From positions 1-64,000 of the forward strand of contig CAJBNH010000031.1 of NCBI GenBank assembly GCA_903955385.1: 64,000 nucleotides of DNA. Direction: 5' to 3'. The notes beneath the pieces were generated by a model that saw only the letters and a list, made by a program, of their open reading frames with translations, was not told the DNA's origin and did no database searches. The stretch's first letter is position 1, and every line of letters begins with the position of its first letter. Shown piece by piece: positions 11,108 through 33,326 of the stretch. The translations under genes were made by a program, and so were the position numbers. Origin of the DNA: an uncultured Myxococcales bacterium. Lineage in GTDB: Bacteria > Myxococcota_A > UBA9042.

Positions 11108-11158
11108 GTTTCCCATCCCGGCTCCTCCCCCCAACCCACGAGCCGTCCAGAGGTCCCC

Positions 11159-12843: not shown

Positions 12844-15750
12844 TTAGGAGCAGCCGCCTGACGTCGCGCCGCAGTCGCAGCGATAGCACGCCCCGGACGG
12901 GAACATCATGCGTCCGCAGCTGGGGCACAGCGGGCTGTCCAGGTGGGCCTTGAACAGCACGCCGTTGCCCGCTTGGGTGCGGACGGCATCGGCCGACGCG
13001 CCGGTTGCCTTCTCGCCTGCGCTTCCAGTCGCCGCTTCGACGGCCGGGACCGCTTCCGCCTCGACGGCCGGGCCCTTGTTCAGGAACTTCAGCGCCAGCC
13101 AGCGGAACAGGTAGTCCGTGATCGACTTGGCGATCGGGATGTCGCGGTTGCCGGTAAAGCCGCTGGGCTCAAAGCGGGTCGCCGTGAACTTGTCGCACAG
13201 CACCGGCAGGGGCACTCCGTATTGCAGCGCCATCGAGATCGCCGTGGCGAAGGCATCCAGCAGACCCGACAGCGTCGAGCCCTCCTTCGCCATCACGATA
13301 AACACTTCTCCCAGAGTCCCGTCCTCGTACATGCCGGCCGTGATGTAGCCCTCGTGTCCGGCAATCGAGAACTTGTGCGTGATCGCCTGCCGCTCGTCAG
13401 GCAGCTTGCGGCGGTCCCGGCGCGCAGCGGGGGCGACGGCGAGAACGGCTTCGACCGCAGCAGCCGGCGCTTCCAGCGCGTGCTTGGTGTCGGTCGTCTT
13501 GCGAGTCGTCAAGGGTTGGGCGCGCTTGCAGCCGTCGCGATAGATGGCGACCGCCTTGATGCCCTGCCGCCAGGCCTCCATGTACGTCCGCGTCACGTCC
13601 TCAATCGTGGCCTCGTTCGGCAGGTTGACGGTCTTCGAAATGGCACCGGACAGGAACGGCTGCACCGCCCCCATCATGTTCAGGTGCCCCATGTAATGGA
13701 TCGACCGCGTGCCGTTGGCGGGCTTGAAAGCGCAGTCGAACACGGACAGGTGCGCGTCCTGCAGGTTCGGCGCGCCCTCGATCGTGTCGCTCTGGTCGAT
13801 GTACAGCGTGATGTCTGCGATCTGGTCGGGCGAGTATCCGAGCTTGCGCAGCGCCGCAGGCACGGCCTGATTCACGATCTTCAGCGTGCCGCCGCCGACC
13901 AGCTTCTTGTACTTGACCAGTGCGATGTCGGGCTCGATGCCGGTCGTGTCGCAGTCCATCATGAAGGCAATCGTGCCGGTCGGCGCCAGCACGGTCACTT
14001 GAGCGTTGCGATAGCCGTGACGCGCCCCTTCCTGCACCGTCTGGTCCCACACCTGCCGCACTGCGCCCATCAGCGGCGCGGGGACGGCCGACGCGTCGAT
14101 GGCGCCCACCGCCGCGCGATGCCGCAGCATCACGTTGTGCATGGCGCTGCGATTGGGCTCGAACTTCGGGAAGGCGCCGATCTGCTCTGCCAGCCGCGCC
14201 GACTGCAGGTTGGCCTCGCCGTGCATCAGCGCCGTGATCGCCGCCGCATACGCCCGTCCCTGCGGCGAGTCGTAGGCCAGCCCACGGGTCATCAGCAGCG
14301 CGCCCAGGTTGGCGTAGCCCAGACCAAGCGGCCGGAAGTCCACGCTGTTCTTGCCAATTCGCTCCGTCGGATAGGCAGCGAAGTCGACCAGAATTTCTTG
14401 GGCGGTCAGCGTCAGTGCCACCGCGTGCCGAAACGCTTCGACGTCCAGCTCGCCGTCCGCGCCCACGAACCGCATCAGGTTCAGGCTGGCCAGATTGCAA
14501 GCCGAGTCGTCCAGAAACATGTACTCGCTGCACGGATTCGAGGCGTTGATCCGACCTGATTCCGGGCAGGTGTGCCAGTTGTTGATGGTCGTGTCGAACT
14601 GCATGCCGGGGTCGCCACACGCCCAAGTCGCCTTGGCCACTTCCTCCATCAGCTCGCGAGCCTTCCACGTGTCCATCGGCCGGCCGTCCTTGACGGCCCG
14701 GGTCGTCCACTCCCCGTCGTCCTGAACGGCGCGCATGAAGTTGTCGGTCGTGCGCACGCTGTTGTTCGAATTCTGAAAGAAGACGGAACCATACGCCTCG
14801 CCGTCGATGCGGCCGTCATAGCCCGCCTCGATCAGCGCCCAAGCCTTCTTCTCCTCCGAAGCTTTGCAGCGGATGAAGGCGGCGATGTCGGGGTGGGTAA
14901 CGTCCAGGATCACCATCTTGGCGGCCCGACGCGTCTTGCCGCCGCTCTTGATCACGCCGGCGAAGGCGTCGAAACCCTTCATGAAGCTCACCGGGCCCGA
15001 CGCCTCGCCACCGCCCGTCAGCTGCTCGCGCGACGACCGGATCGGCGACAGGTTCGAGCCCGTGCCAGAGCCGAACTTGAACAACATGCCCTCGGTCTTT
15101 GCCAGCGACAGGATCGACTCCATCGTGTCCTCGACGCTGTTGATGAAACAGGCCGAGCACTGCGGGCGCGCCTCGAAGCCGACGTTGAACCACACCGGCG
15201 AGTTGAACGCCATGCGCTGGTTCACCAGCAGCCAGGTCAGCTCGTCCTCGAAGATGCGGGCATCACTTTCCGTTGCAAAGTAGCGGCCTTCCCTTCCCCA
15301 CTGGCCGATGGTGCCGACGACTCGGCCGATCAACTGACGCACGCTGGACTCGCGCTCCGGCGTGTCGAGGGTGCCGCGAAAGTACTTCGACACCACCACG
15401 GCGGTGGCGGTCTGCGACCAACTGGCGGGGAACTCAACGCCCTTCTGCTCGAAGATGGTCTCGCCACGCGTGTTGGTGATGGCGGCGGTGCGGCGTTCCC
15501 ACGTGGTCTCGTCGAACGGGTGCACACCGGGGCGGGTGTGGTGTCGGCGCATGGTCAGACCCGCGCCGCGGTCCAGCTTCTGTGACGGCAGGGGAGCAAA
15601 CGCCAGCGGCGCGGCATCAACCGTCGCGATGTCGATGGCCGACACCTCCCGGTCGGTAGCATCGGACTCCTGCGACAGCGTGCCGGAGACCGCGAGCGAA
15701 GGCTCGGTCGCCAGTGCGTCGTCCTGCAGGATCCTCAATTGCAAACTCAT
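12844..15750 (-). CDS. nrdJ: Adenosylcobalamin-dependent ribonucleotide reductase, class II
   Basis: This enzyme makes deoxyribonucleotides from ribonucleotides, generating a thiyl radical with adenosylcobalamin, so it works with or without oxygen. The radical site is NPCSEYMFLDDSACNLASL (the Cys is about residue 405 of 968). The substrate-reducing partner is in QCSACFINSVEDTM, and the C-terminal tail (CPSCG, CYRCDCG, CS) holds the thiol-shuttle cysteines and a possible zinc site. The ATG at 15750 has GAGGGGGGACG before it. The frame stays open to 15915 but that region is not conserved-looking. Two NrdR boxes lie upstream. No class I or III reductase genes are in the window. Confidence 0.94.
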   Translation of the reverse strand: MSLQLRILQDDALATEPSLAVSGTLSQESDATDREVSAIDIATVDAAPLAFAPLPSQKLDRGAGLTMRRHHTRPGVHPFDETTWERRTAAITNTRGETIFEQKGVEFPASWSQTATAVVVSKYFRGTLDTPERESSVRQLIGRVVGTIGQWGREGRYFATESDARIFEDELTWLLVNQRMAFNSPVWFNVGFEARPQCSACFINSVEDTMESILSLAKTEGMLFKFGSGTGSNLSPIRSSREQLTGGGEASGPVSFMKGFDAFAGVIKSGGKTRRAAKMVILDVTHPDIAAFIRCKASEEKKAWALIEAGYDGRIDGEAYGSVFFQNSNNSVRTTDNFMRAVQDDGEWTTRAVKDGRPMDTWKARELMEEVAKATWACGDPGMQFDTTINNWHTCPESGRINASNPCSEYMFLDDSACNLASLNLMRFVGADGELDVEAFRHAVALTLTAQEILVDFAAYPTERIGKNSVDFRPLGLGYANLGALLMTRGLAYDSPQGRAYAAAITALMHGEANLQSARLAEQIGAFPKFEPNRSAMHNVMLRHRAAVGAIDASAVPAPLMGAVRQVWDQTVQEGARHGYRNAQVTVLAPTGTIAFMMDCDTTGIEPDIALVKYKKLVGGGTLKIVNQAVPAALRKLGYSPDQIADITLYIDQSDTIEGAPNLQDAHLSVFDCAFKPANGTRSIHYMGHLNMMGAVQPFLSGAISKTVNLPNEATIEDVTRTYMEAWRQGIKAVAIYRDGCKRAQPLTTRKTTDTKHALEAPAAAVEAVLAVAPAARRDRRKLPDERQAITHKFSIAGHEGYITAGMYEDGTLGEVFIVMAKEGSTLSGLLDAFATAISMALQYGVPLPVLCDKFTATRFEPSGFTGNRDIPIAKSITDYLFRWLALKFLNKGPAVEAEAVPAVEAATGSAGEKATGASADAVRTQAGNGVLFKAHLDSPLCPSCGRMMFPSGACYRCDCGATSGGCS

Positions 15751-15918
15751 CGTCCCCCCCTCGTCCCCATACGCCACCCGCCGAGCACCCGAACACCGAC
15801 GCACCGCAGCGATCCTGGCCATGCCTCGCGCCTCCGAAGCCGGACGTCCCTGAGCGGAACCGTTTGGGCCGGTGCCGCCGCTGCGTAGGGAGACCGGCTC
15901 CTTCTTGCGCAGCACCGG

Positions 15919-17943: not shown

Positions 17944-18792
17944 ATGTCTCCTGAATTTAGACGTGTGGCTGCGCTGATTGCGGTCGGCACGGTGCTGGCC
18001 GCGACGGCTTGGGCCCAACCCGAGCCAACGGCCGAACCTGCTCCGGCCGCAGCCTCAGAGCCCGCGGCCCCGGCCATTGCGCCCGCGGCCCCTGCCTTTG
18101 CGCCCGCGGCCCCTGCCATTGCGCCCGCCGCCCCAGCCACTACGCCCGCCGCCCCGGTCGCTGCACCCGCAGCCCCAGCCGCTGCGCCCGCGGCGGCGCC
18201 CGCTGCCGGGGCCACGGCCCCGCTGCCCGCCACCGGCGACGCTCAGTACGAGGCCCGACTTCGCCAGATCGAAGAACGCGTGGTCGGCATCAAGGAACGT
18301 ATCTTCCAGACCAAAACCAAGCTGCTGCTGCTCAAGGAGCAAATCCTCGACAACGTGATCGCAGAGTCGCGCGCCATCCTCGTGCACCGCAACGAAATGG
18401 GGTCGTTCTTCGAGCTCGTCAGCGTCCTGTACTACCTCGACGGCAAGAAGATCTACTACCAGGACAACTCCAACGGCCTGCTGAACGACCGCAAGGAGTT
18501 CGAGATCTACAACGGCTCCGTGATTCCCGGGAACCACGCCCTGTCGGTGGAACTGGTGTACCGCGGCAACTCGAGCCTGTTCAGCTACTTGCAGGGCTAC
18601 CAGTTCAAGCTGAAGTCTTCCTACACCTTCTATGCTGCCCGCGGCCGAGTCACCGAAGTTGCGGTTGTCGGCTATGAGCGGGGAGGCGTCGGCACCGATC
18701 TCGAAGACAAGCCGTACGTCAAGTACGAGGTCAAGCAGATCCAGAACAAGACAGCCAAGCCCACGGGCGAAGCGGAGCCCGCAGGAAAGTGA
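17944..18792 (+). CDS. Exported Ala/Pro-rich coiled-coil protein, first gene of the TPR envelope operon
   Basis: This 282 aa exported protein has a signal peptide ending AWA-Q at about residue 25. An Ala/Pro linker of about 60 residues follows, with a 21-nt (7-aa) repeat (AAPAIAP and variants). A helical, probably coiled-coil segment follows (YEARLRQIEERVVGIKERIF), then a beta-rich domain (residues 140-265: YYLDGKKIYYQDN, FEIYNGSVIPGNHALSVELVYRG). Such proteins are often misnamed dihydrolipoamide acetyltransferase because of the Ala/Pro linker; no lipoyl or catalytic domain is visible here. GAGAGG precedes the ATG. The stop overlaps the next start. I infer an envelope scaffold role. Confidence 0.6.
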   Translation: MSPEFRRVAALIAVGTVLAATAWAQPEPTAEPAPAAASEPAAPAIAPAAPAFAPAAPAIAPAAPATTPAAPVAAPAAPAAAPAAAPAAGATAPLPATGDAQYEARLRQIEERVVGIKERIFQTKTKLLLLKEQILDNVIAESRAILVHRNEMGSFFELVSVLYYLDGKKIYYQDNSNGLLNDRKEFEIYNGSVIPGNHALSVELVYRGNSSLFSYLQGYQFKLKSSYTFYAARGRVTEVAVVGYERGGVGTDLEDKPYVKYEVKQIQNKTAKPTGEAEPAGK

Positions 18793-21236
18793 TGCTGCCC
18801 ACGGTCGCTCCAGCGCACATCGGTTCGGCCGGTCGCGGCCCCGCGCAGCAGCTCTGCGCGGGTTCTGCGTGGGTTCGCCTGTGCTTGCGCGCGACCCTGC
18901 CCGGCCTGTGCGCGACTGTGGCGCTGCTGACCGCTGTCGTCGGCCCGTCCACCTCTGCCCTCGCCCAGAGCAGCGACCCCGTCCGCGGCATCGAGAACGA
19001 TGTCGAGAACGTCCGGACCTCGGCGCTGCTCATCGACAACGACCTGCGGACCGCGATGGCCCGCGAACGCAAGTACCCGCTGGACCGACGCTTCATCGAA
19101 GCCACGCTCGCCTACGAGCGCGGCAATCTGTCGACAGCATCCGTCCTGCTGACCGACCTCGTCAGCGACGCCGAGTTCCAGAAGATGCGCGACTACGGCG
19201 ACGCCCTGTACATGCTGGGAGACAGCATGTACCGGATGCGCAACTACTTGGGCGCCAAGCGGTATCTGGACCTGATCCTGCGCCAGACCGGCAGCCCCCA
19301 CTACCAGCCCGCCCTGCAAGCGCTGGCCGACATCGCCGTGCGTCTGCGCCGCATGGAGGAAGTCGAGGACTACGCCAAGCGGTTGACCAACGTTCCCGCC
19401 GGCCAGCGGAAGTCTGAGCTGCTGTACCAGTTCGGTCGGTCGTTCTTCTCAGCCGGGTCCTACGACCGTGCAGTCAGCTTCCTCGAGCAAATCGCTGTCG
19501 GCGAAGTCCGCTGGCCGCACGCGCACTTCTACATCGGTGCAGCCCACGTCGCGAAGAACCGAATCCCGGACGCTACGCGAGAGTTCCTTGCGGTCGTCGC
19601 CAACGGCAAGAACATCGACGAGGCCCGCAAGACCCCTCAGGAAGTGCTGGACTTCGCCAACATCGCGTTGGGACGCCTGTACTTGCAGGACAAGCAGTAC
19701 GACGACGCCGCGCTGCACTATCAGGCCGTGGACCGCAACTCGCCGGTGTATGAGGAGTCGCTGTTCGAGCTCGCCGCCACCTACGTCGCCGCGAAGAAGG
19801 CCGACAAAGCGCTTGAGACACTGGATGTTCTGTTGTTGACCGTCAGCGACGACAACGTGGCAGTACAGGCCGCCGTGCTGCGTGGCCGCATCAACATGCT
19901 CAACAAGTCGTACGACGCAGCTGACGCTTCGTACCAGGACGTGGTCGACCGCTACAGCGCGATCACGGGCGAGCTCACGCGATTCGCCTCCAGCGACAAG
20001 AACCTGGAGCAATTCTTCACCTGGCTCCTGAACCGCGGCAGCGACGAGTACTCGGTGGTACGGCCGGTCTCGGACCGCGTCGCCCGCTACATCGAGAACG
20101 ACGAGGACATCCAGCGCGTAGTCACGCTCTTTGACGAGATGTCGGCCGAACGCGCAGAGGTCAAAGAGGCGTCCCGCTTGGCCGCGACCATCGAAGCCGC
20201 CCTGAAAGAGAGCAGCCGCCTCGACATGTTCCCGGAGCTCAAGGACGGCTGGATGCGGGTGGTCGAGAACCAGAACCGCTCCGTGGACACGGGCCGGCGT
20301 ATCGTCGAGCTGCTGCGCACCTACGCCGAACCGCGCATGACGGCAGAGGAACGCATCCGCGCCGACGCCCTACGCGCGGAACGCAAGCGCCTGGAAGAAG
20401 CCTTCGCAAAAGTACCTGCCACCAAGGGCGATTACATCGAGCGCCAGCGCCGCGTCGACTCAGGATTTGCCAATCTGGCGGCCGACGTGGGCATCCTGAA
20501 GACGCAACTGGCCGGCGTGAAAGATCAGGTTCTTGCGGTCGAGAAGATGCTGAATGAACGCGTCTTTGGTGAGCAGGGCCTCGTTCTGCCCAAGGACCGC
20601 GAGAACGAGATCCGCACTGAGCTACAGGCCGCGAAGGACGAAGTGCGCCGCATCTTCCGGGATATCGAGGCCCTGACTCAGGATGTCGAGGTGTATGCTC
20701 AGGGCGTAGGTGCCGGCGACAAGGTCAGCCGCGACGAGAGCACCGTTCGGGTGGCCCTGCTCGCGACCCAGCGAGCTGAGCAGATGCTGTATGCGACCAT
20801 CCTCGAGCGCACAGGCGAGCGTTCCAACGAGGTCGTGCGCCTGCGTGTTGCCCGCACCCAGCTTGAGCAAATTGGCGTCGGCATGGAAGGTTCGCTGGCG
20901 GTCATCTCCTCACGGGCGGGCGAGCGTTTGGCCGGCATCGCCAAGATCCTGACCGTCGAGAAGCGCAACATCGCCGAGTATCAGGTCACCGTTCGCGCCT
21001 ACGAAGACAACGCCCGCTCGCTGTCGCGCGACGTCGGCTTCGGCATGATCCGCAACGCACAGCGTCGATTGGCCGACATCTTGCTGGAAGCTGACTTGGG
21101 CTTGGTCGATGTCGCATGGCAACGCAAGCAGGAAAAGACGAGCGCTATCCGCGAGCTGCAAGAGGAACGCACCCAGCGCATCCGCACGCTTGGCGAGATC
21201 CTCGACAACCTGACCAACGACGGAGGTGCCGAGTGA
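18792..21236 (+). CDS. Large periplasmic TPR/coiled-coil protein
   Basis: This 814 aa protein has a long signal sequence (hydrophobic region about residues 35-58, SALAQ cleavage). TPR-like repeats run over residues 80-360 (DALYMLGDSMYRMRNYLGAKRYL, ALGRLYLQDKQYDDAALHY, LFELAATYVAAKKADKALE). The C-terminal half is long helical coiled coil rich in Glu, Arg and Lys (RAERKRLEEAFAKV, ELQAAKDEVRRIFRDIEAL). I chose the ATG at 18792, which overlaps the previous stop; a GTG lies one codon earlier. Translational overlaps tie it to the next two TPR genes, so I infer one periplasmic complex. Confidence 0.65.
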   Translation: MLPTVAPAHIGSAGRGPAQQLCAGSAWVRLCLRATLPGLCATVALLTAVVGPSTSALAQSSDPVRGIENDVENVRTSALLIDNDLRTAMARERKYPLDRRFIEATLAYERGNLSTASVLLTDLVSDAEFQKMRDYGDALYMLGDSMYRMRNYLGAKRYLDLILRQTGSPHYQPALQALADIAVRLRRMEEVEDYAKRLTNVPAGQRKSELLYQFGRSFFSAGSYDRAVSFLEQIAVGEVRWPHAHFYIGAAHVAKNRIPDATREFLAVVANGKNIDEARKTPQEVLDFANIALGRLYLQDKQYDDAALHYQAVDRNSPVYEESLFELAATYVAAKKADKALETLDVLLLTVSDDNVAVQAAVLRGRINMLNKSYDAADASYQDVVDRYSAITGELTRFASSDKNLEQFFTWLLNRGSDEYSVVRPVSDRVARYIENDEDIQRVVTLFDEMSAERAEVKEASRLAATIEAALKESSRLDMFPELKDGWMRVVENQNRSVDTGRRIVELLRTYAEPRMTAEERIRADALRAERKRLEEAFAKVPATKGDYIERQRRVDSGFANLAADVGILKTQLAGVKDQVLAVEKMLNERVFGEQGLVLPKDRENEIRTELQAAKDEVRRIFRDIEALTQDVEVYAQGVGAGDKVSRDESTVRVALLATQRAEQMLYATILERTGERSNEVVRLRVARTQLEQIGVGMEGSLAVISSRAGERLAGIAKILTVEKRNIAEYQVTVRAYEDNARSLSRDVGFGMIRNAQRRLADILLEADLGLVDVAWQRKQEKTSAIRELQEERTQRIRTLGEILDNLTNDGGAE

Positions 21237-24200
21237 TGCGCACCCCGCTTCGCCTTTGGGTCATTCTGGCGACCTTGGTCACGCTGTTCGCGGTGTCCGC
21301 GGGCGCTGAGCAGCCCGTGCGGACCATGCCGAAGTATCGGGTTCGCGGCGACGTCGTCGACGACCCGGTGCAGCTCAACGTCGAGCGCAAGGCTTTCCAG
21401 GCAGCGTTCGAGGCCTACAAGCTCGCCGCCAAGGAGTTCCGCGACGAGGTTCGCGAGTTCATCGCCCGCGAGGTCTCGAGTCGGCAGAAGAGCGTTTCCA
21501 GCGGCTACCAGTCGCAGATCGACGCCTTGGACAAGCAGCAGTTCGACCTGCGGCGTGAGGCGATTGCCCGTCTCGAGTCGTTCATCTTCCGCCACCGCGA
21601 TCACGAGCAGTACACCCCGGACACGATGTTCCGGCTGGCCGAGCTGTACTACGAGGACACGATCGCGTCGTACAACCGCTCGCAGGACGACTTCAACCGC
21701 GAGATGGGCCTGTACAACCGCGGCAAGTTGCTGGACCCGCCGACGGAGAGCGAGCGCGACTTCTCCCGCTCGATCGCCATCTACAAGTACCTGCACTGGG
21801 TGCCTGAGGGTACGCAGATGTCGCCGCTGGCGGGCAAGCTGCAGGGCGTCGTGCTCGAGGCGCGCTGGCCGAACTACAAGTTCGCCGACGCCGCGATGTA
21901 CCTGCAAGGCTACTGTGAGTTCGAGGGTGGCGAGGTCGAGCGCGCGATCGCTTCGCTGTCGAAGATCGAACAGTTCTATCCGAACTCGCAGTACGTTGCT
22001 GAGGCTTGGTTGCGCGTCGGCGAAATGTACTTCGACGACAGCAACTTCGAAGCCGCCGCCGACGCCTATGGCAGAGCCGCCAAGCGTGCCGAACAGACCG
22101 GCGACCACAAGAACTACAGCCTCGCGCTCTACAAGTTGGGCTGGTCAAACTTCCAGCTCTACCGGTACCCGGAAGCCGTGCGCTGGTTCCAGAAGCTGAT
22201 TGAATTCGAGGACAACCTTGCGGCCAAGGCGACCAAGGGCAAGGACCAGCTCGACCTCCGCAAGGAAGCGATCGAGTACTTGGCCAAGTCCCTTGCGGAA
22301 CCGAGTTGGGATGAAGACGGCTGCGACGACTTCGGCAACGAGGACGCCAAGAGCGCGTGCCTGACGCTGGACCCGCGCTTGCGCCCGCGGCTCTACGTCG
22401 CGTCGGTACTTGCTCCGGACTTCACGGACTTCCCGAACTGGCAGTCGGTGGCGCAAGGCGACGTGCTGACCCGCCTGCAAGCGAACTTCAACGCCCGTCA
22501 GGCCGTCCGCAAGGACTTGATCAACGGCAAGCCGTACATCTACGACATCCTGCTGACCTACGGTAACACGTTGCTTGAGCAGGCTTTGGACGACTACTAC
22601 CGCCAAGGCATCCTGGTGCTGGGCTACGTCGTCGACCATTGGCCGCAGGCCCGCGAGTCCCAGGCTTCGCAGCGCAAGATCATCCGCGCCGTCGACATCT
22701 TGGCCGGCGCCGCACTGAACTATCAGGCCCTGCTTGCCAAGGGTGGCTTGAGCGCCGCCGAGCAGAACACCGCCAAGCTGGGTCTGGAAATGGCGATGGC
22801 CGACCAGGAACGGCAGGTCGTCGAGCGCCGCAAGTACCTGAGCTTGTTCGCCAAGGGAACGCCCTGGTACGAGAAGTGGGGCGGAGACAAGGACCTGGCC
22901 GCACAGGTGGACGACACCATCAACAAGGTCCGCCTCGACTTCGCCCGCCTGATGCACCAGCAAGCGCAAACGCTGCGTGCCGCGGGTGAAGAAGACGCGG
23001 CGTTGGCCAAGTACATCGAGGCCTCGAAGGAATACGAGGTCTTGTTGCTCAACGACCTTGAAGCCCCCGGAGCCTACGAGCTGGCGTGGACGGTCGCGGA
23101 GACCCAGTACTTCGCTGGCAAGCGCTGCGACGCCCTGCGCACCAAGGAAAACGAGCTGCTGACCGACCCGAAGTCCGGCGCCCTGATTCCGTACCCGGTG
23201 GAGGCGGTTCCGGCGCTGAAGGGCTCTTGCGAGCAGATGCGCAAGTCGATCAAGTACTACACGATGGTCCGCGACTGGAAGGGTCAGAAGGGCAAGGGAG
23301 AGGACGGCAAGCCTCTGGACTACACGGAAGAGGCCGGCTTTACCGCCATCCTGTCGTCCAGCCAGGTGCTGAACGCGCGTGCGGCGCTGCCCGTCAACGA
23401 CCCGGAGTACCTCGAGTCCCGCATGATCCCTGAGCTGCGCCCCAGCAACGCGCAGGACGACGCGGACATCGAGGCGATGAAGGACGCGATTGCTGTCCAG
23501 CGCGTGCCGCGGCAGACGATCGACCCCGTCGCGACCGAGTGGCTGCTTGCCGTGGATGGCTACATCGCCGCGGGCCAGTTCAACCGCGAGGATCCGGAGC
23601 GCGCCCAGCGCTTGGCCCTGCAGGCGGCGGAATTGCTCTACAAGAACCGCAACTACGACCCGTGGCCTCAGGGTGTGACACCGCGAACCACGGCCGGATT
23701 CTGGTCCGCCCGCGAGCGTTTCTGGTGGATCATCGAGAAGTTCCCGGTGTCCAAGCAGGCGATCTCGTCCATCCAGAACCTGTTGACCTCCTTCGCGGTC
23801 GAGAACGACATCGAGGGCCTGCAGATGGTCACCAAGTACATGGAGGAGCACCCGCGCCTCGGTGACCCGACCAAGATCGACGAGACGAAGAAGAAGGTCG
23901 CGTTGTTCAAGCTCGGCGTGTTGGCTCGCGACGCAGAGAACTTGTACGGCGAAGCGGAAAAGCGCCGCAAGGCCGCAGAAGCAAGCACGAATCCTGACGA
24001 AGCAGGCAAGCAGTTCGCCGACGCTCGCGAGTACTACGACAAAGCTGGCGACAAGTACCGCAACCTGCGCGCGGACGCCAAGGACACCAAGACCAAGCTG
24101 GGCGCTCTGATGTGGGGCATGGAGTCGTTCCGGCAGGCAGAGAAGTGGGACAAGTGCTTCGACGTGCTGAAGGAAGCCGAAGAGATGATCCGCAGCGTCA

Positions 24201-25333
24201 AGGACGCTGACGAGGCCGAGCGCAAGGAGAACCTCAAGCGCTTGGACCAGATTGTCACCACGCGCGCCAAGCTGAACTACCGCTTCTTCCGCATCCCCGA
24301 GGCCATCGCGGACTACCGTCTGCTGTACGAAACCGATCCGAACGGACAGTACGCTGCCGAATACCTGAAGTCTGCCGCCGACTTGGCGTCGTACAACAGC
24401 AACTGGGATCTCGCCGTCCAGCTCGACAAGGAATACATCGCCCGCTACAGCGGCGACGTGAAGAAGCGCGACACGGTGCGGACCACGGCGTGGCGCATTC
24501 AGCAGTCGTGGCAGAAGAAGGGCGACATCGATCGGCAGGTCGAGGCACTCGAAGAGTTCATCGCCCGCTACACCACCGACAAGCTGGCGTCGAACCGCGT
24601 GTTCCAGGCCTACTCGATGATCGGCGAGATCTACGAGAGCCGCGGCGACGAGAAGAACGCCGACAAGATCTGGCGCCGCATCATCGATGCGTTCAACACG
24701 GGCGGTTACGCCAAGAACGGCGGTCCGGAAGCGACGTCGGCCGCGCAGGCGACGTTCAAGCTGATGGTGCCCCGCTACCAGCGGTTCATGGCGACCAAGA
24801 TTGTGGCCAACCCGAAGCTGTCGGCGCTCAAGCAGGCGCAGGATCTGCAGAATCAGGTCAAGGCGATGATGGACATCGTGGCCGGGCCGGAGAAGAAGAC
24901 CAAGAAGCCAGACGGCACCGTCGAGACCAGTCGCGGTGGCGGCATGTTCGACGAGTACAAGGACGCGGTCGCCGGTTACGGTTCGCGAGACTGGTCGTAC
25001 GCTGCGTACCTGTATCGTGGCCAGATGCTGGTGTTCTTCGCCAAGTCGATCTACGGCGCGCCGACACCTGAGAACATGTCCCCCGACGAAGAAGAAGAAT
25101 ACCTGAACGCTTTGGAGCAGTTCGGCAAGCCCATCGAAGATCAGGCCCTGCGTTCGTTCGTGTCCGCGTTGAGCGATGCCGAGTCCAAGGGCGTCGTGAA
25201 CCAGTGGGTCACCGAGCTGCGCAAGGCGGTCAACCGGTACAAGCCCAAGGAATACCCGCTGCTCAAGGACGAGAAGCGTCTCGTCGCCGATCCGGCAGGC
25301 ACGTTGCTGCAGCCGGACAGGGAGCTGCGATGA
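21236..25333 (+). CDS. Very large periplasmic TPR protein, GltD/AgmU-like
   Basis: This 1365 aa exported protein has a signal peptide ending AGA-E at about residue 25 and many degenerate TPRs along its length (MFRLAELYYEDTIASYNRSQDDF, AMYLQGYCEFEGGEVERAIASL, AWLRVGEMYFDDSNFEAAADAY, ALYKLGWSNFQLYRYPEAVRWF). The family arrangement of big TPR protein, TPR lipoprotein and small exported protein recalls GltD-GltE-GltF (AgmU-AglT-PglI) of the myxobacterial envelope-spanning gliding machinery. Whether the machinery is motility-related here cannot be told. GGAGG lies 10 bases before the ATG, which overlaps the previous TGA. The next gene overlaps the stop by four bases. Confidence 0.6.
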   Translation: MRTPLRLWVILATLVTLFAVSAGAEQPVRTMPKYRVRGDVVDDPVQLNVERKAFQAAFEAYKLAAKEFRDEVREFIAREVSSRQKSVSSGYQSQIDALDKQQFDLRREAIARLESFIFRHRDHEQYTPDTMFRLAELYYEDTIASYNRSQDDFNREMGLYNRGKLLDPPTESERDFSRSIAIYKYLHWVPEGTQMSPLAGKLQGVVLEARWPNYKFADAAMYLQGYCEFEGGEVERAIASLSKIEQFYPNSQYVAEAWLRVGEMYFDDSNFEAAADAYGRAAKRAEQTGDHKNYSLALYKLGWSNFQLYRYPEAVRWFQKLIEFEDNLAAKATKGKDQLDLRKEAIEYLAKSLAEPSWDEDGCDDFGNEDAKSACLTLDPRLRPRLYVASVLAPDFTDFPNWQSVAQGDVLTRLQANFNARQAVRKDLINGKPYIYDILLTYGNTLLEQALDDYYRQGILVLGYVVDHWPQARESQASQRKIIRAVDILAGAALNYQALLAKGGLSAAEQNTAKLGLEMAMADQERQVVERRKYLSLFAKGTPWYEKWGGDKDLAAQVDDTINKVRLDFARLMHQQAQTLRAAGEEDAALAKYIEASKEYEVLLLNDLEAPGAYELAWTVAETQYFAGKRCDALRTKENELLTDPKSGALIPYPVEAVPALKGSCEQMRKSIKYYTMVRDWKGQKGKGEDGKPLDYTEEAGFTAILSSSQVLNARAALPVNDPEYLESRMIPELRPSNAQDDADIEAMKDAIAVQRVPRQTIDPVATEWLLAVDGYIAAGQFNREDPERAQRLALQAAELLYKNRNYDPWPQGVTPRTTAGFWSARERFWWIIEKFPVSKQAISSIQNLLTSFAVENDIEGLQMVTKYMEEHPRLGDPTKIDETKKKVALFKLGVLARDAENLYGEAEKRRKAAEASTNPDEAGKQFADAREYYDKAGDKYRNLRADAKDTKTKLGALMWGMESFRQAEKWDKCFDVLKEAEEMIRSVKDADEAERKENLKRLDQIVTTRAKLNYRFFRIPEAIADYRLLYETDPNGQYAAEYLKSAADLASYNSNWDLAVQLDKEYIARYSGDVKKRDTVRTTAWRIQQSWQKKGDIDRQVEALEEFIARYTTDKLASNRVFQAYSMIGEIYESRGDEKNADKIWRRIIDAFNTGGYAKNGGPEATSAAQATFKLMVPRYQRFMATKIVANPKLSALKQAQDLQNQVKAMMDIVAGPEKKTKKPDGTVETSRGGGMFDEYKDAVAGYGSRDWSYAAYLYRGQMLVFFAKSIYGAPTPENMSPDEEEEYLNALEQFGKPIEDQALRSFVSALSDAESKGVVNQWVTELRKAVNRYKPKEYPLLKDEKRLVADPAGTLLQPDRELR

Positions 25334-27642
25334 ACGCCTTGCGCTTCCAGCTGCGCCTTGGCGCACCGCGATGGCTGCTCGCTTGCGTGGCTGTCCTGGC
25401 CACGTCGGCATGGCTGACGGCTTGCGGTGCTCCCGAGGTTGTCGAGCCGCCGCCGCCGCCGCCCGTCGAGACGCCGGTTGATCCGGTCGAGCCGCCGCCC
25501 GCGATCGATGAGGCGCCGCCCGTCGAGACCCCCGCGGAACCGACGCCCGTCGCTGCAGAGCCGGCGGCCGAGCCGACGCCCACTGCGGCCGAACCGGCCA
25601 AGGCTCCTGAGGAAGTCACTGACATCCGGCGCGATTCCTCGCCGGCGGAAGACATGATCAAGGAAGGCGTCACCCTGCTGCGCGACAACAACCTGTTTGA
25701 CGCCCGGCAGCGCTTGCAGGCGGCCACGCAGCAGGACCCGAAGTCGGCGACGGCCTGGTACAACCTCGCGCTTGTGCAGCACCGCATGGGCAACACGGAG
25801 GATGCGCTCGCGTCGGCGGGCAAGGCCCTCGAACTGAATCCGACCTATTCGCGTGCCGCCGTCCTCTCTTCGGTCATTCACCTGCGACGCAACGAGCCGG
25901 GCATGGCCGAGAAGGTCTTGGACGGCATGCTGGCCTCCCGTCCCGCAGACGTGATGCTGCTGGGCGCACGGGCGCGCGTGTTCGTCGAAGAGAAGGAGTA
26001 CGGCAAGGCGCTGGAAACCTGCGTGCGAGCCCTGCGGCTCGACCACGACAACCCCGAGGCGTTGCGGTACATGGCCGAGGCCTACTTGGCGATGGGGCGC
26101 GACGGTCTGGCCAAGCTGGCACTCGACCGCGCGTTCTCGATCTACTCCGGCGACTATGAGGTCGAGGGTCAAGCAGCCGCGGTCACCGATCCCAATGCGC
26201 CCGTCGAGGCTCCACGCAAGGCGTATGATGTCCGTATTGCCAAGGGCGGCGGCAGCATGCGCGGCACACGGGCGGAGGCGCTGGACCGCGACGCCGGCAT
26301 CGCGCACATCTACTACCTGTACGGCCGCATGGCGATGAAGACGGATCAGGTCTCGGAGGCGCGCGAGCACTTCCTGCAAGCCACCCGACTTCGCCCAGAC
26401 TACGCCGAAGCTTGGAACAATCTGGGCGTGTGCTGGGTCACCGCCAAGAAGGGCGAAGAGGCCATTGAGGCGCTGACCAAGGCGCTTGAGATCGAGCCCA
26501 CCATGCTCGAAGCCCGGGTGAACCTGGGCAGCGCCTACCGAATCAGCAAGGATCCGGAGCGCGCAGTGAAGGCCAAGGCACAGTACGAGAAGGCGATCAC
26601 GCAGGACTCGCGGCTGCCGGCGCCCTACTTCAATCTCGGCATCCTCTACCTCGAAAGCGAGATGCCGGACGTCTCGAACAACGAGCAGCGGTACCAGAAG
26701 GCCATCGACTACTTCGCAGCTTACCGCGACAAACGGGGCCCCGTACGCGGCAAGGATAAGGACCCGCTGGAGGACTACGTCGCCGAGGCCGTGAACCTGC
26801 GCAAGATCGCCGCCGACGCCCGCAAGGCGCAGGAACAGGCCGCACAGGAACAGGAGATCGAGAAGAAACGGCTGGAAGAAGAGAAGATCCAGAAGGAAGC
26901 GGAAGAGAAGAAGAAGGCCGAGGAAGATCGCATCAAGGCTGAAGAAGAGGCCAGCAAGAAGGCTGCTGCGGAAGACGCCCTACGGCTGAAGGCCGAGGAC
27001 GATGCCCGCAAGGCCGCCGAAGCGGACGCCCAGAAGACGGCTGAGGAAGCCCGCAAGGCCGAAGAAGCCCAGCGCGCCGCCGAAGAGGAAGCCCGCAAGA
27101 AGGCTGAGGAAGAGGCCAAGCGACAGCTGCCGCCGGTCGATGAGACTCCCCTGCCGCCGACCCCGCCGCCTCCGCCCGACGACTCCGCCCCCGTTCCGGC
27201 GCCGCCCCCGGAGCCCGCGCCTGAGCCCGCCCCGGCACCTGAGCCCGCGCCTGCCCCTGAGCCCGCGCCTGCCCCCGAGCCCGCGCCTGCCCCCGAGCCC
27301 GCGCCTGCCCCTGAGCCCGCGCCTGCCCCCGAGCCCGCGCCTGCCCCCGAGCCCGCGCCTGCCCCTGAGCCCGCTCCTGCCCCTGAGCCGCCGCCTGCCC
27401 CTGAGCTGCCGCCTGCCCCTGAGCCGCCGCCTGCGCCTGAGCTGCCGCCTGCGCCCGAGCCTGCGCCCGCTCCTGAGCCGCCGCCTGCCCCAGAGCCGGC
27501 ACCTGCTCCTGAGCCGCCGCCTGCCCCAGAGCCGGCACCTGCTCCTGAGCCGCCGCCTGCTGAGGAACCGGCTCCCCCGCCGCCTGCGCCTCCCACCGAC
27601 GAGGAACCGCCGCCGCCCCCGCCCCCGCCTCCTGAAGGCTGA
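25330..27642 (+). CDS. TPR lipoprotein with coiled coil and Pro-rich C-terminal tail, GltE/AglT-like
   Basis: This 770 aa protein has a lipobox LTAC (Cys 32), a Pro/Glu linker to about residue 95, then TPRs (AWYNLALVQHRMGNTEDALASAGKALELNP near 139; EAWNNLGVCWVTAKKGEEAIEAL near 359). From about residue 496 a charged helix of Glu, Lys and Ala follows (possible periplasm-spanning rod). The last 145 residues are low-complexity EPAPAP repeats. The architecture matches TPR lipoproteins such as AglT/GltE, with an unusually long tail. The ATG overlaps the previous stop by four bases (ATGA), with GGGAG upstream. The repeats may vary in number between strains. Confidence 0.65.
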   Translation: MNALRFQLRLGAPRWLLACVAVLATSAWLTACGAPEVVEPPPPPPVETPVDPVEPPPAIDEAPPVETPAEPTPVAAEPAAEPTPTAAEPAKAPEEVTDIRRDSSPAEDMIKEGVTLLRDNNLFDARQRLQAATQQDPKSATAWYNLALVQHRMGNTEDALASAGKALELNPTYSRAAVLSSVIHLRRNEPGMAEKVLDGMLASRPADVMLLGARARVFVEEKEYGKALETCVRALRLDHDNPEALRYMAEAYLAMGRDGLAKLALDRAFSIYSGDYEVEGQAAAVTDPNAPVEAPRKAYDVRIAKGGGSMRGTRAEALDRDAGIAHIYYLYGRMAMKTDQVSEAREHFLQATRLRPDYAEAWNNLGVCWVTAKKGEEAIEALTKALEIEPTMLEARVNLGSAYRISKDPERAVKAKAQYEKAITQDSRLPAPYFNLGILYLESEMPDVSNNEQRYQKAIDYFAAYRDKRGPVRGKDKDPLEDYVAEAVNLRKIAADARKAQEQAAQEQEIEKKRLEEEKIQKEAEEKKKAEEDRIKAEEEASKKAAAEDALRLKAEDDARKAAEADAQKTAEEARKAEEAQRAAEEEARKKAEEEAKRQLPPVDETPLPPTPPPPPDDSAPVPAPPPEPAPEPAPAPEPAPAPEPAPAPEPAPAPEPAPAPEPAPAPEPAPAPEPAPAPEPAPAPEPPPAPELPPAPEPPPAPELPPAPEPAPAPEPPPAPEPAPAPEPPPAPEPAPAPEPPPAEEPAPPPPAPPTDEEPPPPPPPPPEG
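27222..27560 (+). repeat. 18-bp tandem repeat coding EPAPAP
   Basis: Imperfect 18-bp units (GAGCCCGCGCCTGCCCCC and variants) recur across the 3' end of the TPR lipoprotein gene, encoding Glu-Pro-Ala-Pro-Ala-Pro and later Glu-Pro-Pro-Pro-Ala-Pro forms. Such tracts can vary in copy number by slippage without breaking the frame. Confidence 0.8.
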
Positions 27643-28709: not shown

Positions 28710-31181
28710 CTAATCGGCCGCGCCTTCCATGCGCCGCCATTCGCCAGGCTGGGTGGGGACGGACCACAGCTCGGCCAGAACCTCGGTCGGGTCGGCCACA
28801 TCATCCATCGGCCCCAGCTCGACCTCACCGCCGTGGTCGTCATCCTCGGGGAAATCGCCTCGCATCCTGCGATCTTCCTCTGCTTTCTGTTCCTTGGCGC
28901 GCAGTTTCAACAGCTGCTTCTTGTCCATCCCCTTGGCCAGCACGCGTAGCCGCGTGTTGGTGTGGAAGGTCAGCCACATCACGAAGTGGACAGGATGGAA
29001 GTGGTACAGCAGGCCGTCCCACGCCGCGCCCGTGTCGAGGCCGATGAACTTGGCGACGTCTGCCGTCAGCCACATGAAGGGCAGTTGCCGCTGAATCTGC
29101 TGAGCGAACAGCGTGTTGCGCCACATGCCTCGCTCGTCCTGCAACAGCTTCGTCAGCTCCTCGACGCGCTCGTTCCACCCTTGGGCGACCGCCATCGACT
29201 TGAACCAGTCGACCTGGTCGCTCCACTCGGACACATGTCGCGTGATGGAGCGGCGCAGGCGATTGCGGACCACGCCCTCGTCGCTGTCGTCGGCGGCGGA
29301 GTAGAAGGCCTGCACGTCGTCGGGCGCAACCTTGCGAGACGACAGGATGAAGTCGTCCTGCTTGCGCTTGGAACCGGTGCCGGCGGCTTCCGGCAGGATC
29401 ATGCGGGTCAGGTCCTCGGTATCGACCATCAGGTTGTCGTCGGTGTCGGCCTCGAGCTCGAACCAGAACTCACTGTGAATGCCCAGCAAGTCGACGATCT
29501 GGCGCCAGCGACCGTCGGCGATGATCTCGACGTGCAGGACGCCGTCCTCACCCTGCTCGTCGCCGAAGTTGCCCACGCGGCCGATGACCTTGCCCGCCGG
29601 TACGCGCGTCTGGTCGGTGCCGTCGATGGCAAACAGGGCTACGTCGCCCCGCTTCAGTGCGGCCAAGTGCTCGCCGTGGTCGAGGAACGGCTTGTACTCC
29701 GGGTCCGCCCCCTCACCGTCGGCGACAGGGTCCTCTTCCTCCGGCTCGTCACCTTCCGCGAGCGGCTTGGCCGGCTTCGGCGCGACCTTTGACCCGGTTG
29801 GCTTGGGGGCGGTCGGGGCGGCTTCTGCATCAGCGCCTTCCTCGCCCTCGGCCGGCTTGCCAGTGTTGCCGCGTCGGGCGTTCGACACCCACTCGGGTGC
29901 CATCGTCATCAACGCCGCGTCATCCTGCACCTTGGCCTTGTAAGCGGCGTCGGACTTGTCCTGTTCAGCGTCGAAGGCGAGCAGGTGCATGTACAGAGAA
30001 TAGAAGACGAACACGCGCTTGGGGTCCGCCGGGTCGAAGGGGACCTCATGGCGCACCAGCACGAAGTTGTTCGAGCCCAGCCGAGCACTGGGACCGTTGC
30101 GTGCGGCGACGACGGTGCCGTCGATCATCGCCCGGACCTCGGTGCCACGCGGCGCGTGCAAATGGACGCCGCCGTGCCACTGACCGCCCAGCCCCATGGG
30201 ATAGAAGCCACCGAGTTCATTGGCTTCCGTGTTCTTGTAGTAGTGCGCCGCAAGCTGCAGCACCTTCTGCTCGGTCAACAGGCTCGCGATGCTGACGCCT
30301 GCCACGAGCTCGAGCGGGAAGTCGTTGTGCTCTTTCGCAAGGCCCTGCAGCAGGCGCGCCCAGTCGAAGCCCGGCCCCGGGTCGAACTTCTGCGCCGTCA
30401 TGTGGAAGTGCCCGTAGATACCCATCTTTTCGGTGTCGATGGCTTCCGGGACTTGCCAAATGATCTCGCCCCGCTCATCGACGGGCGCGGCCAGCTTGAT
30501 CTTGGGGAAATGGACGTTGAGCTCACGCAAGAGCTTGATCAGCGCGTCGTATTGCGCGTCGGTGTAGCCCCAGCTCTTCCAGGGCACGCCGTTGATCTCG
30601 ATGACCTCGCTCATCCGCCGCACGCCGCCCGATGCCATCTGGCCCGCGAGACCCGCCTTGGCCGGGTCGACTTCGCCCGTCGAGCGCGCGTAGTTCATCT
30701 GCAGGCAGTTGACGTCGATGCCGATGGCGAAGTTGTTCAGGTTGGGGCGCAGATCTGAAGCCGCGTGGATGGCCATCGCGACGGGATCGGCCGACTGGTA
30801 GATCGTGCCGTCCCAATCGACCATGAAGTGCGTCGAAAAGCCGCGCATCTTCAGGATCCGAAAGCAGTCCTTGGAGTTCGCCGTGATGTCGGCGTGCAGC
30901 ACCACGCAGTCGACCACGCCCTGCGCCGTCGGCAAGTCCGTGATGTGCAGGCCTTTGTCGGTCCGTCTGGGCCACAGGTACTTGCGGTTGGCGTCGGGGT
31001 GGATCAACCGAGAGAAGTCCATCGCGGGGTCGTCCAGATACGTCACGATGCGGGCGTCGGCGACGGTGCGCTTTTCTCCAGCCACGACGATGTAGTCGCG
31101 CGCGTTGGCCGGCCCCTGCTCCTGCAGCGTGTTGCGCGGAGTGGCGAGGTTCAGCTGGGCGACTTGCACGGACGACGACAT
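28710..31181 (-). CDS. N-acetylmuramoyl-L-alanine amidase fused to degenerate LytM (M23) domain
   Basis: This is an 823 aa protein. An Amidase_2/AmpD-like domain (about residues 88-280) has a complete zinc site by eye: His96 (VLHADI), His258 (GHFH) and Asp267 (KFDPGP). A LytM fold follows (WHGGVHLHAPRGTEV, VVAARNG, LYMHL), then a 110-residue acidic Ala/Pro linker and GKVIGRVGNFG with VLHVEI. In the LytM part the zinc Asp is His340 and the HxH is Val-Leu-His550, so it looks catalytically dead, like EnvC or NlpD. No signal peptide or lipobox is visible. The C-terminal 230 residues are unassigned. It is five bases downstream of the VWA gene. Confidence 0.7.
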   Translation of the reverse strand: MSSSVQVAQLNLATPRNTLQEQGPANARDYIVVAGEKRTVADARIVTYLDDPAMDFSRLIHPDANRKYLWPRRTDKGLHITDLPTAQGVVDCVVLHADITANSKDCFRILKMRGFSTHFMVDWDGTIYQSADPVAMAIHAASDLRPNLNNFAIGIDVNCLQMNYARSTGEVDPAKAGLAGQMASGGVRRMSEVIEINGVPWKSWGYTDAQYDALIKLLRELNVHFPKIKLAAPVDERGEIIWQVPEAIDTEKMGIYGHFHMTAQKFDPGPGFDWARLLQGLAKEHNDFPLELVAGVSIASLLTEQKVLQLAAHYYKNTEANELGGFYPMGLGGQWHGGVHLHAPRGTEVRAMIDGTVVAARNGPSARLGSNNFVLVRHEVPFDPADPKRVFVFYSLYMHLLAFDAEQDKSDAAYKAKVQDDAALMTMAPEWVSNARRGNTGKPAEGEEGADAEAAPTAPKPTGSKVAPKPAKPLAEGDEPEEEDPVADGEGADPEYKPFLDHGEHLAALKRGDVALFAIDGTDQTRVPAGKVIGRVGNFGDEQGEDGVLHVEIIADGRWRQIVDLLGIHSEFWFELEADTDDNLMVDTEDLTRMILPEAAGTGSKRKQDDFILSSRKVAPDDVQAFYSAADDSDEGVVRNRLRRSITRHVSEWSDQVDWFKSMAVAQGWNERVEELTKLLQDERGMWRNTLFAQQIQRQLPFMWLTADVAKFIGLDTGAAWDGLLYHFHPVHFVMWLTFHTNTRLRVLAKGMDKKQLLKLRAKEQKAEEDRRMRGDFPEDDDHGGEVELGPMDDVADPTEVLAELWSVPTQPGEWRRMEGAAD

Positions 31182-31185
31182 CGGT

Positions 31186-32940
31186 TCAGCCCTTGGCCTT
31201 GCGGAAGATGCGACGGACGATCAGGAACAGAATCAGCAGGAACACCAGCGACACAAGCACCAGGATCGCCACACCGACGACCACGTAGAGCGTGTACCCG
31301 AGCACGCCCTGCGCCGTGGCGGCCGCGCCGCGCAGCGACTTCTCGACGCGCGCGGTCCAGCCGAGCTTGGGCTCGATCACGGCCGTCACGCCGACGGAGC
31401 CCAGCTTGGTCACGTCGCCTCGCACCATCGAGGGGTCCAACTCAACCGCCAGCCTCAGGTTCAGGGTCCCTTCGACCTCGTCCGGCGTCTGATGCACGAA
31501 CTCGATGGTCCACTGGCCCAACACTTCAGACATCGTGGCATTCAGCTCGGTCGCAAGGTTCTCTTCCTTCTCGACCTCGCGGTAGGTGCCACCGGTGCGC
31601 TCTGCCAGCAGTCGCAGCCGCTCCAGCTCGTAGGGCTCGCCCAACATCCCCAACCCGACGGCGAAGATGCGGATGCCGGCTGCGCGCGCCGTGCCAATCC
31701 AGAAAGCGGCGCGGCTGCGAAAGTCGACCTGCTGGGCGATCAGGCGCTGGTTGAGGAATTGGCGAATGCAGTCCTGCTGCTTGACGGCATCATCGGCCAG
31801 CGCGCGGCAGCTTTCCGGCGGGTTCTCCTGGCACAGTTCGAGGTCGCGGAAATAGCCATCCTTGCCGTCGCCGACGAGGATCAGCACCTTCTGCTCGCCC
31901 TGTCTGGAGTCCCGCAGCAGCAGCTTGAGCGCCTCGTCCATCGCCGAGGTTTCGTAGTCCAGCGCCTCACCCTTCAGCTGACGCGCCGCGCGGGCGTCAG
32001 TCTGCACTTTCGCGTTCTCTGGCGTGAATTCCCCGTACTTCTGCAGCGCTTCCCGGGGGGGCTTGCAGTACCTTCGGTAGTCGTAGAACGGCGCACCCAA
32101 GTTGAACGGCCGAGGAAAGTAGCCCTCGAATGCCGTCTGCTGACCTTTCAACAGGGTGATGATGGGCTTGGGGTCGGTGGCCAGACCGCACAAGTCGGTC
32201 CCCGCGGCTGGCGACGGCGCTTCCTCTGTCGCCGGACCAGCGCCTGTGATCGGTCCACCGGTAAGCGCCTCGAACCGGGCGTCGGCACAGACTTTTCGCG
32301 TCTCCTCGACATCCGCGAGCTCGCCCGTGCGTCCCTTGAGGCCCACGAAGCGATACAGGCGGTCATTGGCCCAGATCAGGTTGATGCGGTCGGTCTTGGC
32401 CAGCGGCTTGAAGGCGGACGCGAGCGCTTCCTTCAACCGACGACCCAGGCTTCCGTTGCGCAGCGCGGGTGCCTGATAGCCTGAGGCGACGATCACCAAG
32501 GCTGTCGGCACCCCGGCCTTGTCCATCGGGATCAGGTTGCCATCCTTGCGACCGTCCAGCGGCTGGCCCGCCTGGAAGGCGATGTAGGGCGGCCGGCTCT
32601 TCTGCTTGGCGTCGACCACGGACAGCTTCTTCACTGCCTTCAGCGCCACCGGTCGGCCGTTGCGGTCCAACACGGTGCCGAAGACGCGAACCTTGGGGAA
32701 TTCCGACACATCGATGCGCTGAATGCGGGCTTGCGGCAAGTCGAGGGGCGGCACGGTCGGCTCAAGCGCGATCGGTTCGATCGGACCGTGGTTGTGTCCA
32801 TCGTCCTGACCGACCGCGCTGCGGGCCCCGCCGACCGTGCCCGCGGCAAATGCGAGCAGCACGAGACCGCGCGCGACGACGACGGCAGACCGCCGCCGGT
32901 CGCGGAGCGCACCGCCCGAGACTGAAGAACGCAAGGTCAT
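31186..32940 (-). CDS. Membrane-anchored VWA-like protein with degenerate MIDAS
   Basis: This 584 aa type I membrane protein has an n-region rich in Arg, a signal segment to about residue 44, a von Willebrand factor A-like domain (about residues 143-480), and a C-terminal transmembrane segment (about 550-575) ending in a basic tail (RRIFRKAKG). In canonical MIDAS the first strand ends DxSxS, but here it reads VIVASGYQ, so the metal site lacks the Asp. The later strand VLILVGDGKDG keeps the second Asp. It is translationally coupled (ATGA) with the small Tat-like gene before it. The function may be protein contact rather than metal-dependent adhesion. Confidence 0.65.
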   Translation of the reverse strand: MTLRSSVSGGALRDRRRSAVVVARGLVLLAFAAGTVGGARSAVGQDDGHNHGPIEPIALEPTVPPLDLPQARIQRIDVSEFPKVRVFGTVLDRNGRPVALKAVKKLSVVDAKQKSRPPYIAFQAGQPLDGRKDGNLIPMDKAGVPTALVIVASGYQAPALRNGSLGRRLKEALASAFKPLAKTDRINLIWANDRLYRFVGLKGRTGELADVEETRKVCADARFEALTGGPITGAGPATEEAPSPAAGTDLCGLATDPKPIITLLKGQQTAFEGYFPRPFNLGAPFYDYRRYCKPPREALQKYGEFTPENAKVQTDARAARQLKGEALDYETSAMDEALKLLLRDSRQGEQKVLILVGDGKDGYFRDLELCQENPPESCRALADDAVKQQDCIRQFLNQRLIAQQVDFRSRAAFWIGTARAAGIRIFAVGLGMLGEPYELERLRLLAERTGGTYREVEKEENLATELNATMSEVLGQWTIEFVHQTPDEVEGTLNLRLAVELDPSMVRGDVTKLGSVGVTAVIEPKLGWTARVEKSLRGAAATAQGVLGYTLYVVVGVAILVLVSLVFLLILFLIVRRIFRKAKG

Positions 32941-33326
32941 GCGCTGAACCGATGCGGCAGCAGGCGATAGCCACCGACCACGCGGCGCTCCAAAACGGCG
33001 CCGTTGCGGGACACGAGCTCGAGTTCGACGGCATATGCGCCGGGTACGAGGTCGTCGAAGGGGTAGGGGGTCTCGAATTCGAGGCGACGGTTGGGCTGTG
33101 CTGTGTACACGCCGTGCTGGAACCTTCCGTGTTCACAGGAGATAGCGACACGGACGCTGGCACCGGGCGGGACCGCGTCGCTCAAGTCCACCCGCAGCGG
33201 CGCTCCCGGAAACAGGGCCTCGCCTGCCACCGTCCAAGCAGGGTCGACGTGAAACAGCGCCCTGTGGCCGACGGCGGCCGCGACGGTGGCGGTGGAGCAC
33301 GTCATCAGGAAGGCGCGTCGATCCAT
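32937..33326 (-). CDS. Small exported protein with Tat-like signal
   Basis: This 129 aa protein begins MDRRAFLMTCSTATVAAAVGH, which fits a twin-arginine signal (RRxFL) better than a Sec signal. The mature domain is beta-rich (LRVDLSDAVPPGASVRVAISC, RRLEFETPYPFDDLVPGAYAVELELVSRNGA), reminiscent of an Ig-like or carbohydrate-binding sandwich. The stop overlaps the start of the VWA gene by four bases. A much longer open frame extends upstream to 34181 but runs over thiL in the wrong frame and is rejected. No function is known. Confidence 0.55.
   Translation of the reverse strand: MDRRAFLMTCSTATVAAAVGHRALFHVDPAWTVAGEALFPGAPLRVDLSDAVPPGASVRVAISCEHGRFQHGVYTAQPNRRLEFETPYPFDDLVPGAYAVELELVSRNGAVLERRVVGGYRLLPHRFSA

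Follow-up and report, generated by a model that had tools for sequence, protein, structure and literature searches.

An amidase with a WHIX-related domain in Myxococcota and its co-occurrence with a contractile injection system other than T6SS

WHIX is a bipartite domain that is named after its WHxxxH motif, caps the tail of VgrG and is sufficient for export by the type VI secretion system (T6SS) (PMC12135965). It is fused to wall hydrolases, and the genes that flank these fusions mostly encode signal-peptide proteins, which are taken as immunity proteins (PMC12135965). Here, a WHIX-related domain is described in a stretch of 64,000 nucleotides (the window; contig CAJBNH010000031.1) from an uncultured Myxococcales bacterium, where it follows an amidase domain in a single protein (AMI). 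The AMI gene stands last in an operon on the minus strand, behind genes for a small protein resembling substrates of twin-arginine translocation (Tat-like) and for a VWA-like protein. Whereas WHIX has been described as T6SS-specific, it occurs here in genomes without a T6SS and almost one to one with another contractile injection system (CIS). The operon probably encodes a peptidoglycan-cutting cargo of this non-T6SS CIS together with a membrane partner.

The closest described relatives are the subclass II WHIX T6SS effectors (Fridman et al. 2025, PMC12135965), with which AMI has in common the WHxxxH motif, the two-region domain, an N-terminal peptidoglycan hydrolase, the lack of a signal peptide and signal-peptide proteins as neighbours. 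Among the WHIX proteins listed in Table 2 of that study, one has an AmpD-like amidase as N-terminal extension (WP_044238255.1; PMC12135965). AMI differs from these effectors in that its host genome and family are without a T6SS and its domain tracks another CIS. It also has no C-terminal toxic domain, has a membrane VWA partner and is kept across many families. The features of the operon are listed by window coordinates.

28710..31181, minus strand: AMI, amidase-WHIX protein of 823 aa without signal peptide (open reading frame, ORF; Pfam Amidase_2 and M23)
30372..30917, minus strand: Amidase_2/AmpD-like catalytic domain of AMI, aa 89-270 (Pfam, conservation, Foldseek)
29967..30254, minus strand: putative WHIX region 1 of AMI (M23-like), about aa 310-405 (hidden Markov model (HMM) match to T6SS effectors)
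30162..30179, minus strand: WHxxxH motif of AMI, aa 335-340, with W335, H336 and H340 (conservation; motif as defined in PMC12135965)
28872..29684, minus strand: putative WHIX region 2 of AMI, about aa 500-770, with HVE (H550), SEW (651-653), W704 and HFHP (727-730) (conservation, HMM)
31186..32940, minus strand: VWA-like protein of 584 aa with N-terminal signal-like segment, VWA-like domain and C-terminal transmembrane (TM) segment (ORF, conservation, Kyte-Doolittle scan)
32476..32490, minus strand: degenerate metal-ion-dependent adhesion site (MIDAS) of the VWA-like protein, VASGY, aa 151-155, without DxSxS (sequence, alignment)
31216..31266, minus strand: C-terminal TM segment of the VWA-like protein, aa 559-575 (Kyte-Doolittle mean 3.63)
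32937..33326, minus strand: Tat-like small protein of 129 aa, RRxFL helix and seven-strand Ig-like domain (TIGR01409, AlphaFold2 (AF2), Foldseek)

The amidase domain and the M23-like region of AMI

Pfam Amidase_2 matched AMI at residues 89-270 (E 1.8e-12), and the top Foldseek match was AmpD (2y28, E 1.1e-4, probability 1.00). The AmpD-type zinc residues H96, H258 and D267, noted in the original prediction, were invariant in an alignment of 39 AMI proteins, on which all residue counts are based. By this His, His, Asp set and its fold AMI is a member of the AmpD/Amidase_2 group, and it differs from AmpD and AmpDh in being multidomain and cargo-like. Planctomycete and verrucomicrobial matches to AMI covered the amidase domain only. 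A phage lysin was considered and rejected: no phage match was obtained, and a single viral contig matched weakly, in the amidase domain only. At one locus (L085, 209-2374), a single ORF carries the amidase domain twice in tandem.

Hydrophobic and TM segments were located by Kyte-Doolittle scans. An N-terminal hydrophobic segment was found in 0 of the 39 AMI proteins, in line with the predicted lack of a Sec or Tat signal. A signal peptide hidden by a misplaced start codon was excluded, as only about 13 further open codons lie upstream of AMI and several relatives begin at the first conserved strand. With AmpD as closest solved fold and no signal peptide in any aligned protein, AMI might serve in cytosolic, AmpD-like recycling of muropeptides, with the cytosolic tail of the VWA-like protein holding it at the inner membrane. 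Such a role is highly improbable: only about nine residues follow the TM segment of the VWA-like protein in the window, and the WHIX region and the CIS co-occurrence would be left unexplained.

In the M23-like region, Pfam Peptidase_M23 matched residues 336-379 (E 2.2e-8). When the register was checked against the MHYGVD motif of lysostaphin, the zinc Asp was indeed found to be replaced by His340 and HxH by Val548-Leu-His550. W335, H340 and H399 were present in 39/39 AMI proteins and H336 in 38/39, and position 550 was occupied by His in 31, Asp in 6 and Glu in 1. A set of three potential metal ligands is accordingly kept in 38/39 proteins (HHH in 31, HHD in 6, HHE in 1). Judged from this alignment, the M23-like site is remodelled and not decayed. 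Residues E652, W704, H729 and P730 of region 2 were nearly invariant as well. In family f30 (L054, L056, L057, L059, L060, L061), His550 is replaced by Asp and His340 stays, by which the ligand types are swapped compared to canonical M23.

From the lost M23 residues it had been proposed that AMI carries a dead LytM domain of the EnvC/NlpD type, which acts as a built-in activator of the amidase and is docked to a VWA receptor; such a protein would serve division or wall remodelling. A non-canonical M23-type domain in the context of a cell-wall amidase is indeed common to AMI and the LytM factors EnvC, NlpD and DipM. However, these factors are separate exported activators, whereas AMI is a fused, signal-less WHIX-like module with a conserved ligand set; in AMI, neither the loss of zinc ligands nor a separate exported protein with a signal was found. 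EnvC and NlpD act on AmiA, AmiB and AmiC, which are Amidase_3 enzymes, whereas AMI is of the Amidase_2/AmpD type. As His340 is an invariant part of WHxxxH, a second conserved region extends over about residues 500-770 and the distribution of AMI tracks a CIS, the claim of a dead activator was abandoned and such a function is considered very unlikely.

The relation to WHIX was apparent from several searches. In a tblastn search against plasmids, genes of Burkholderiales and Photobacterium matched AMI residues 313-429. An HMM of the M23 region that was built from AMI alone gave strong matches (E 7.6e-21 to 6.1e-29) to Caballeronia, Paraburkholderia and Photobacterium effectors. The same effectors were matched, more weakly, by the HMM of the C-terminal region alone (E 1.6e-5 to 2.7e-3), with the regions in the same order. 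No match to the AMI-built profiles was obtained among 1000 shuffled proteins, and the amidase HMM did not match the T6SS-type effectors. With the AMI family profile, lysostaphin scored 27 bits versus 71-97 bits for the effectors, and the closest relatives of the WHIX region outside the phylum were T6SS effectors. These effectors consist of a WHxGxH motif, the SEW/HFHP region, which is variably kept, and a lysozyme- or chitinase-like end; their genes neighbour VgrG/PAAR (L153) or come right after a VgrG-like gene (L154). By the conserved WHxxxH motif, the bipartite homology to VgrG/PAAR-linked effectors and the context, a peptidoglycan-targeting fusion without signal peptide, the supposedly dead LytM half of AMI is related to WHIX. 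An M23 fold with a remodelled zinc site could, in this way, turn into a docking module that annotation then reads as dead LytM.

Gene order and the proteins encoded with AMI

AMI relatives were identified in 68 of 284 Myxococcota genomes, a set of species representatives many of which are metagenome-assembled genomes. They are mostly single copy and retained across many families. Forty loci around AMI relatives were fetched, of which two were cut by a contig end and 38 could be used for gene order. At all 38 loci the VWA gene was located upstream of AMI and read in the same direction, and at 37 it was directly adjacent; the sole break was observed at L039 (G148, 3914-11703), where VWA is split from AMI by a pair of unrelated genes of 362 and 728 aa. 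The Tat-like gene was detected at 24/38 loci. Since the order is kept across the phylum, the arrangement is more than chance, and the three co-directional genes of the original prediction are a real and widely conserved unit that does co-occur in other Myxococcota. Their predicted spacing was right for the 4-bp overlap of the Tat-like and VWA genes (32937-32940), whereas the gap between VWA and AMI is 4 bp (31182-31185) and not 5. The operon has thiL upstream and coaD downstream, a wider order that was seen only within its own family. A run of TPR genes (18789-27642), which includes a plus-strand gene for a TPR protein whose tail is a long PAPEPAP-type repeat (25204-27642), adjoins the operon in same-family relatives too.

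The VWA-like protein is membrane-anchored, as predicted; it has a hydrophobic segment at the N-terminus and, further on, a strong TM segment. The MIDAS motif DxSxS, already reported as lacking (VASGYQ in the window), is also missing in all aligned relatives, and a later Asp of the MIDAS region (D358) is retained. On its own, the window protein matched Pfam VWA weakly (E 0.0078); PF00092 was matched by 6 of 18 members of the operon-VWA family (best 2.3e-10) and by a paralogue in the CIS cluster (2.8e-6). This paralogue, the VWA-FHA protein encoded last in the CIS cluster, matched the operon-VWA profile with E 8.6e-29. In deep branches, the operon VWA proteins carry zinc ribbons, and some also FHA, after the TM segment. 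Because of the homology to the CIS VWA-FHA protein and the zinc-ribbon/FHA tails of the deep-branch proteins, the operon VWA can be assigned, at the level of sequence, to a CIS-linked family.

The VWA-like protein, the Tat-like protein or both might provide immunity to AMI rather than docking, which would be compatible with AMI as CIS cargo. The signal-peptide neighbours of WHIX effectors that are taken as immunity proteins (PMC12135965) and the VWA gene upstream of AMI at every sampled locus are in favour of such a function. Nevertheless, an FHA-tailed VWA paralogue lies inside the CIS cluster without an amidase beside it. To our knowledge, immunity proteins are not expected to carry cytosolic zinc-ribbon/FHA tails like those of the VWA proteins, and an immunity function in place of docking is possible, though doubtful.

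The Tat-like protein scored 15.1 bits with the TIGR01409 TAT_signal_seq model and just missed the cut-off of 16.7. Its AF2 model (mean predicted local distance difference test (pLDDT) 83.9) has a helix at the N-terminus followed by an Ig-like sandwich, for which Foldseek returned generic beta-sandwiches only. The protein may be an accessory periplasmic factor, possibly for immunity, in part of the phylum. Hitchhiking of AMI on a Tat-exported partner was weakened as a general route, because families f30, f36 and f4 and three f2 genomes (G031, G040, G191) keep AMI and VWA and the Tat-like gene was not found anywhere in the tested genomes. In f38 the gene gave a weak match on another contig only.

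Co-occurrence of AMI with a CIS

The T6SS sheath protein VipB was identified in 41/284 genomes and was absent from the genome of the window (G000) and its family (f1). Across the set no association between AMI and VipB was observed (both 10, AMI only 58, VipB only 31, neither 185; p = 1.0). On these grounds, a T6SS effector in the genome of the window was ruled out. A phage-type sheath (PF04984) was present in 64/68 AMI genomes, and a CIS is encoded in the host genome. AMI was found in 59/62 genomes with the CIS sheath1 of G000, compared to 9/222 others (59/9/3/213, odds ratio 465, Fisher p 2.7e-47), and the association was retained by family (14/3/1/36, p 2.9e-9), with counts that are inflated by shared ancestry of the genomes. 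Within AMI-positive groups, AMI and the sheath were jointly missing in members of f7 (G133, G226, G249, G267), f2 (G036, G079, G158) and f30 (G229). How AMI without a signal reaches peptidoglycan had been left open in the original prediction; the CIS, co-occurring almost one to one, is a candidate route, and delivery as its cargo would explain the missing Sec or Tat signal.

The CIS cluster of G000 (contig C173) starts with Pvc16_N, sheath1, a 123-aa gene, sheath2, a gp19 tube gene and a 1329-aa gene. These are followed by CIS_tube+LysM, a 384-aa gene, a gp25-like gene, baseplate J, Tail_P2_I+PASTA and a 514-aa gene, and the cluster ends with an FHA gene and the gene for the VWA-FHA membrane protein, which has a signal peptide. 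A Ser/Thr kinase gene lies upstream, and the VWA-FHA gene recurs at the same position in other genomes, with no amidase beside it. Pvc16_N, two sheaths, a gp19-type tube, CIS_tube+LysM, baseplate J and Tail_P2_I are common to this cluster and the extracellular CIS (eCIS) and cytoplasmic CIS (PVC/Afp/AlgoCIS, Streptomyces CIS and Myxococcota eCIS; PMC11937823). It differs from them in its FHA and VWA-FHA end and in that the amidase-WHIX operon and the spike lie away from the cluster. In a search of a limited collection of papers, nothing was found on a CIS combined with FHA and VWA or on WHIX outside T6SS.

In Streptomyces, the membrane protein CisA is encoded after the baseplate genes and is required for firing (PMC12237407). 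The VWA-FHA gene takes an analogous place, and CisA is a precedent in function and not by demonstrated homology. The topology is reversed: the N-terminus of CisA is cytoplasmic and its solute-binding-like C-terminus periplasmic (PMC12237407), whereas here VWA is outside and FHA inside.

The CIS spike (265 aa) has an OB domain and a beta-helix-like tail and is encoded by an orphan gene adjoining hflX, in G000 on the minus strand of contig C189 (L204, 7308-8105). Near this spike gene, a minus-strand gene of L204 (3078-3860) encodes a soluble protein with a CxxC zinc ribbon start and an FHA-like look; it is kept in L206 and L208, and the deep-branch VWA proteins hold the same pair of modules. Two f30 genomes, G108 and G058, have seven and ten Phage_base_V spike matches, compared to one or two in seven other tested genomes.

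Proposed delivery of AMI as CIS cargo

If AMI is a cargo of the CIS, it would fold in the cytosol and be seated on the CIS spike by its WHIX domain. On contraction of the sheath it would enter the periplasm of a target cell or cross the wall of the producer itself, and the amidase domain would then cut peptidoglycan. The VWA-like protein at the inner membrane would most likely be a docking or firing partner or an immunity protein.

Several observations weigh against this course. More than 98% of genomes with WHIX carry a T6SS (PMC12135965). The AMI operon and the CIS cluster were physically unlinked in every examined genome, lying on separate contigs or at distant loci, and cargo is usually, though not always, encoded in the cluster. 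The spike is a third locus apart from both, its tail is only a candidate structure for WHIX to cap, and no spike or PAAR gene lies beside AMI, the spike being encoded by hflX and PAAR elsewhere. The co-occurrence is partly derived from shared ancestry. It is broken by G093 (91% complete), which has AMI and no detected sheath, and by G180, in which a 60% identical sheath is present without AMI. Several of the exceptions are incomplete genomes; G093, G124, G148, G165, G174 and G180 are more than 90% complete, and G124, G148 and G165 do carry another sheath match. At two more distant AMI loci from another collection (L077, L081) VWA was not detected. The patchy occurrence of the Tat-like gene and the modest confidence of the AF2 model of AMI (mean pLDDT 63.6) count on the same side.

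AMI might also maintain the machine and not be a weapon at all, by opening the producer's own peptidoglycan for assembly or firing of a membrane-docked CIS, with the VWA-like protein as inner-membrane anchor. In this case, a mostly single-copy gene kept across many families would be expected, unlike fast-changing effector/immunity pairs, as would a partner that is a membrane paralogue of the CIS-cluster VWA-FHA protein. A precedent is TagX, a peptidoglycan hydrolase needed for T6SS biogenesis in Acinetobacter (PMC5061870). The characterised WHIX relatives, however, are exported cargo (PMC12135965), and AMI has no export signal to its own periplasm; maintenance is considered unlikely.

If AMI is indeed delivered as cargo, docking of cargo on the spike would be common to T6SS and eCIS-type machines. 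It would also provide a concrete cargo for the widespread, transcribed CIS of Myxococcota (PMC11937823), with the bacterial cell wall as suggested target. The chances are judged to be even for a wider proposal, in which WHIX derives from the M23 fold, serves contractile machines in general as a spike-docking domain, arms the kinase/FHA/VWA-FHA CIS of Myxococcota with an amidase for antibacterial or predatory use, and is accompanied by a paralogous VWA that pairs each amidase to the membrane.

Elsewhere in the window, a plus-strand ORF of 995 aa (54967-57954), in which Mur_ligase, Mur_ligase_M and Mur_ligase_C each occur twice, is read as a MurE-MurF fusion within a division and cell-wall cluster. 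A class II (B12-dependent) ribonucleotide reductase with a TSCPD domain is encoded on the minus strand (12844-15915).
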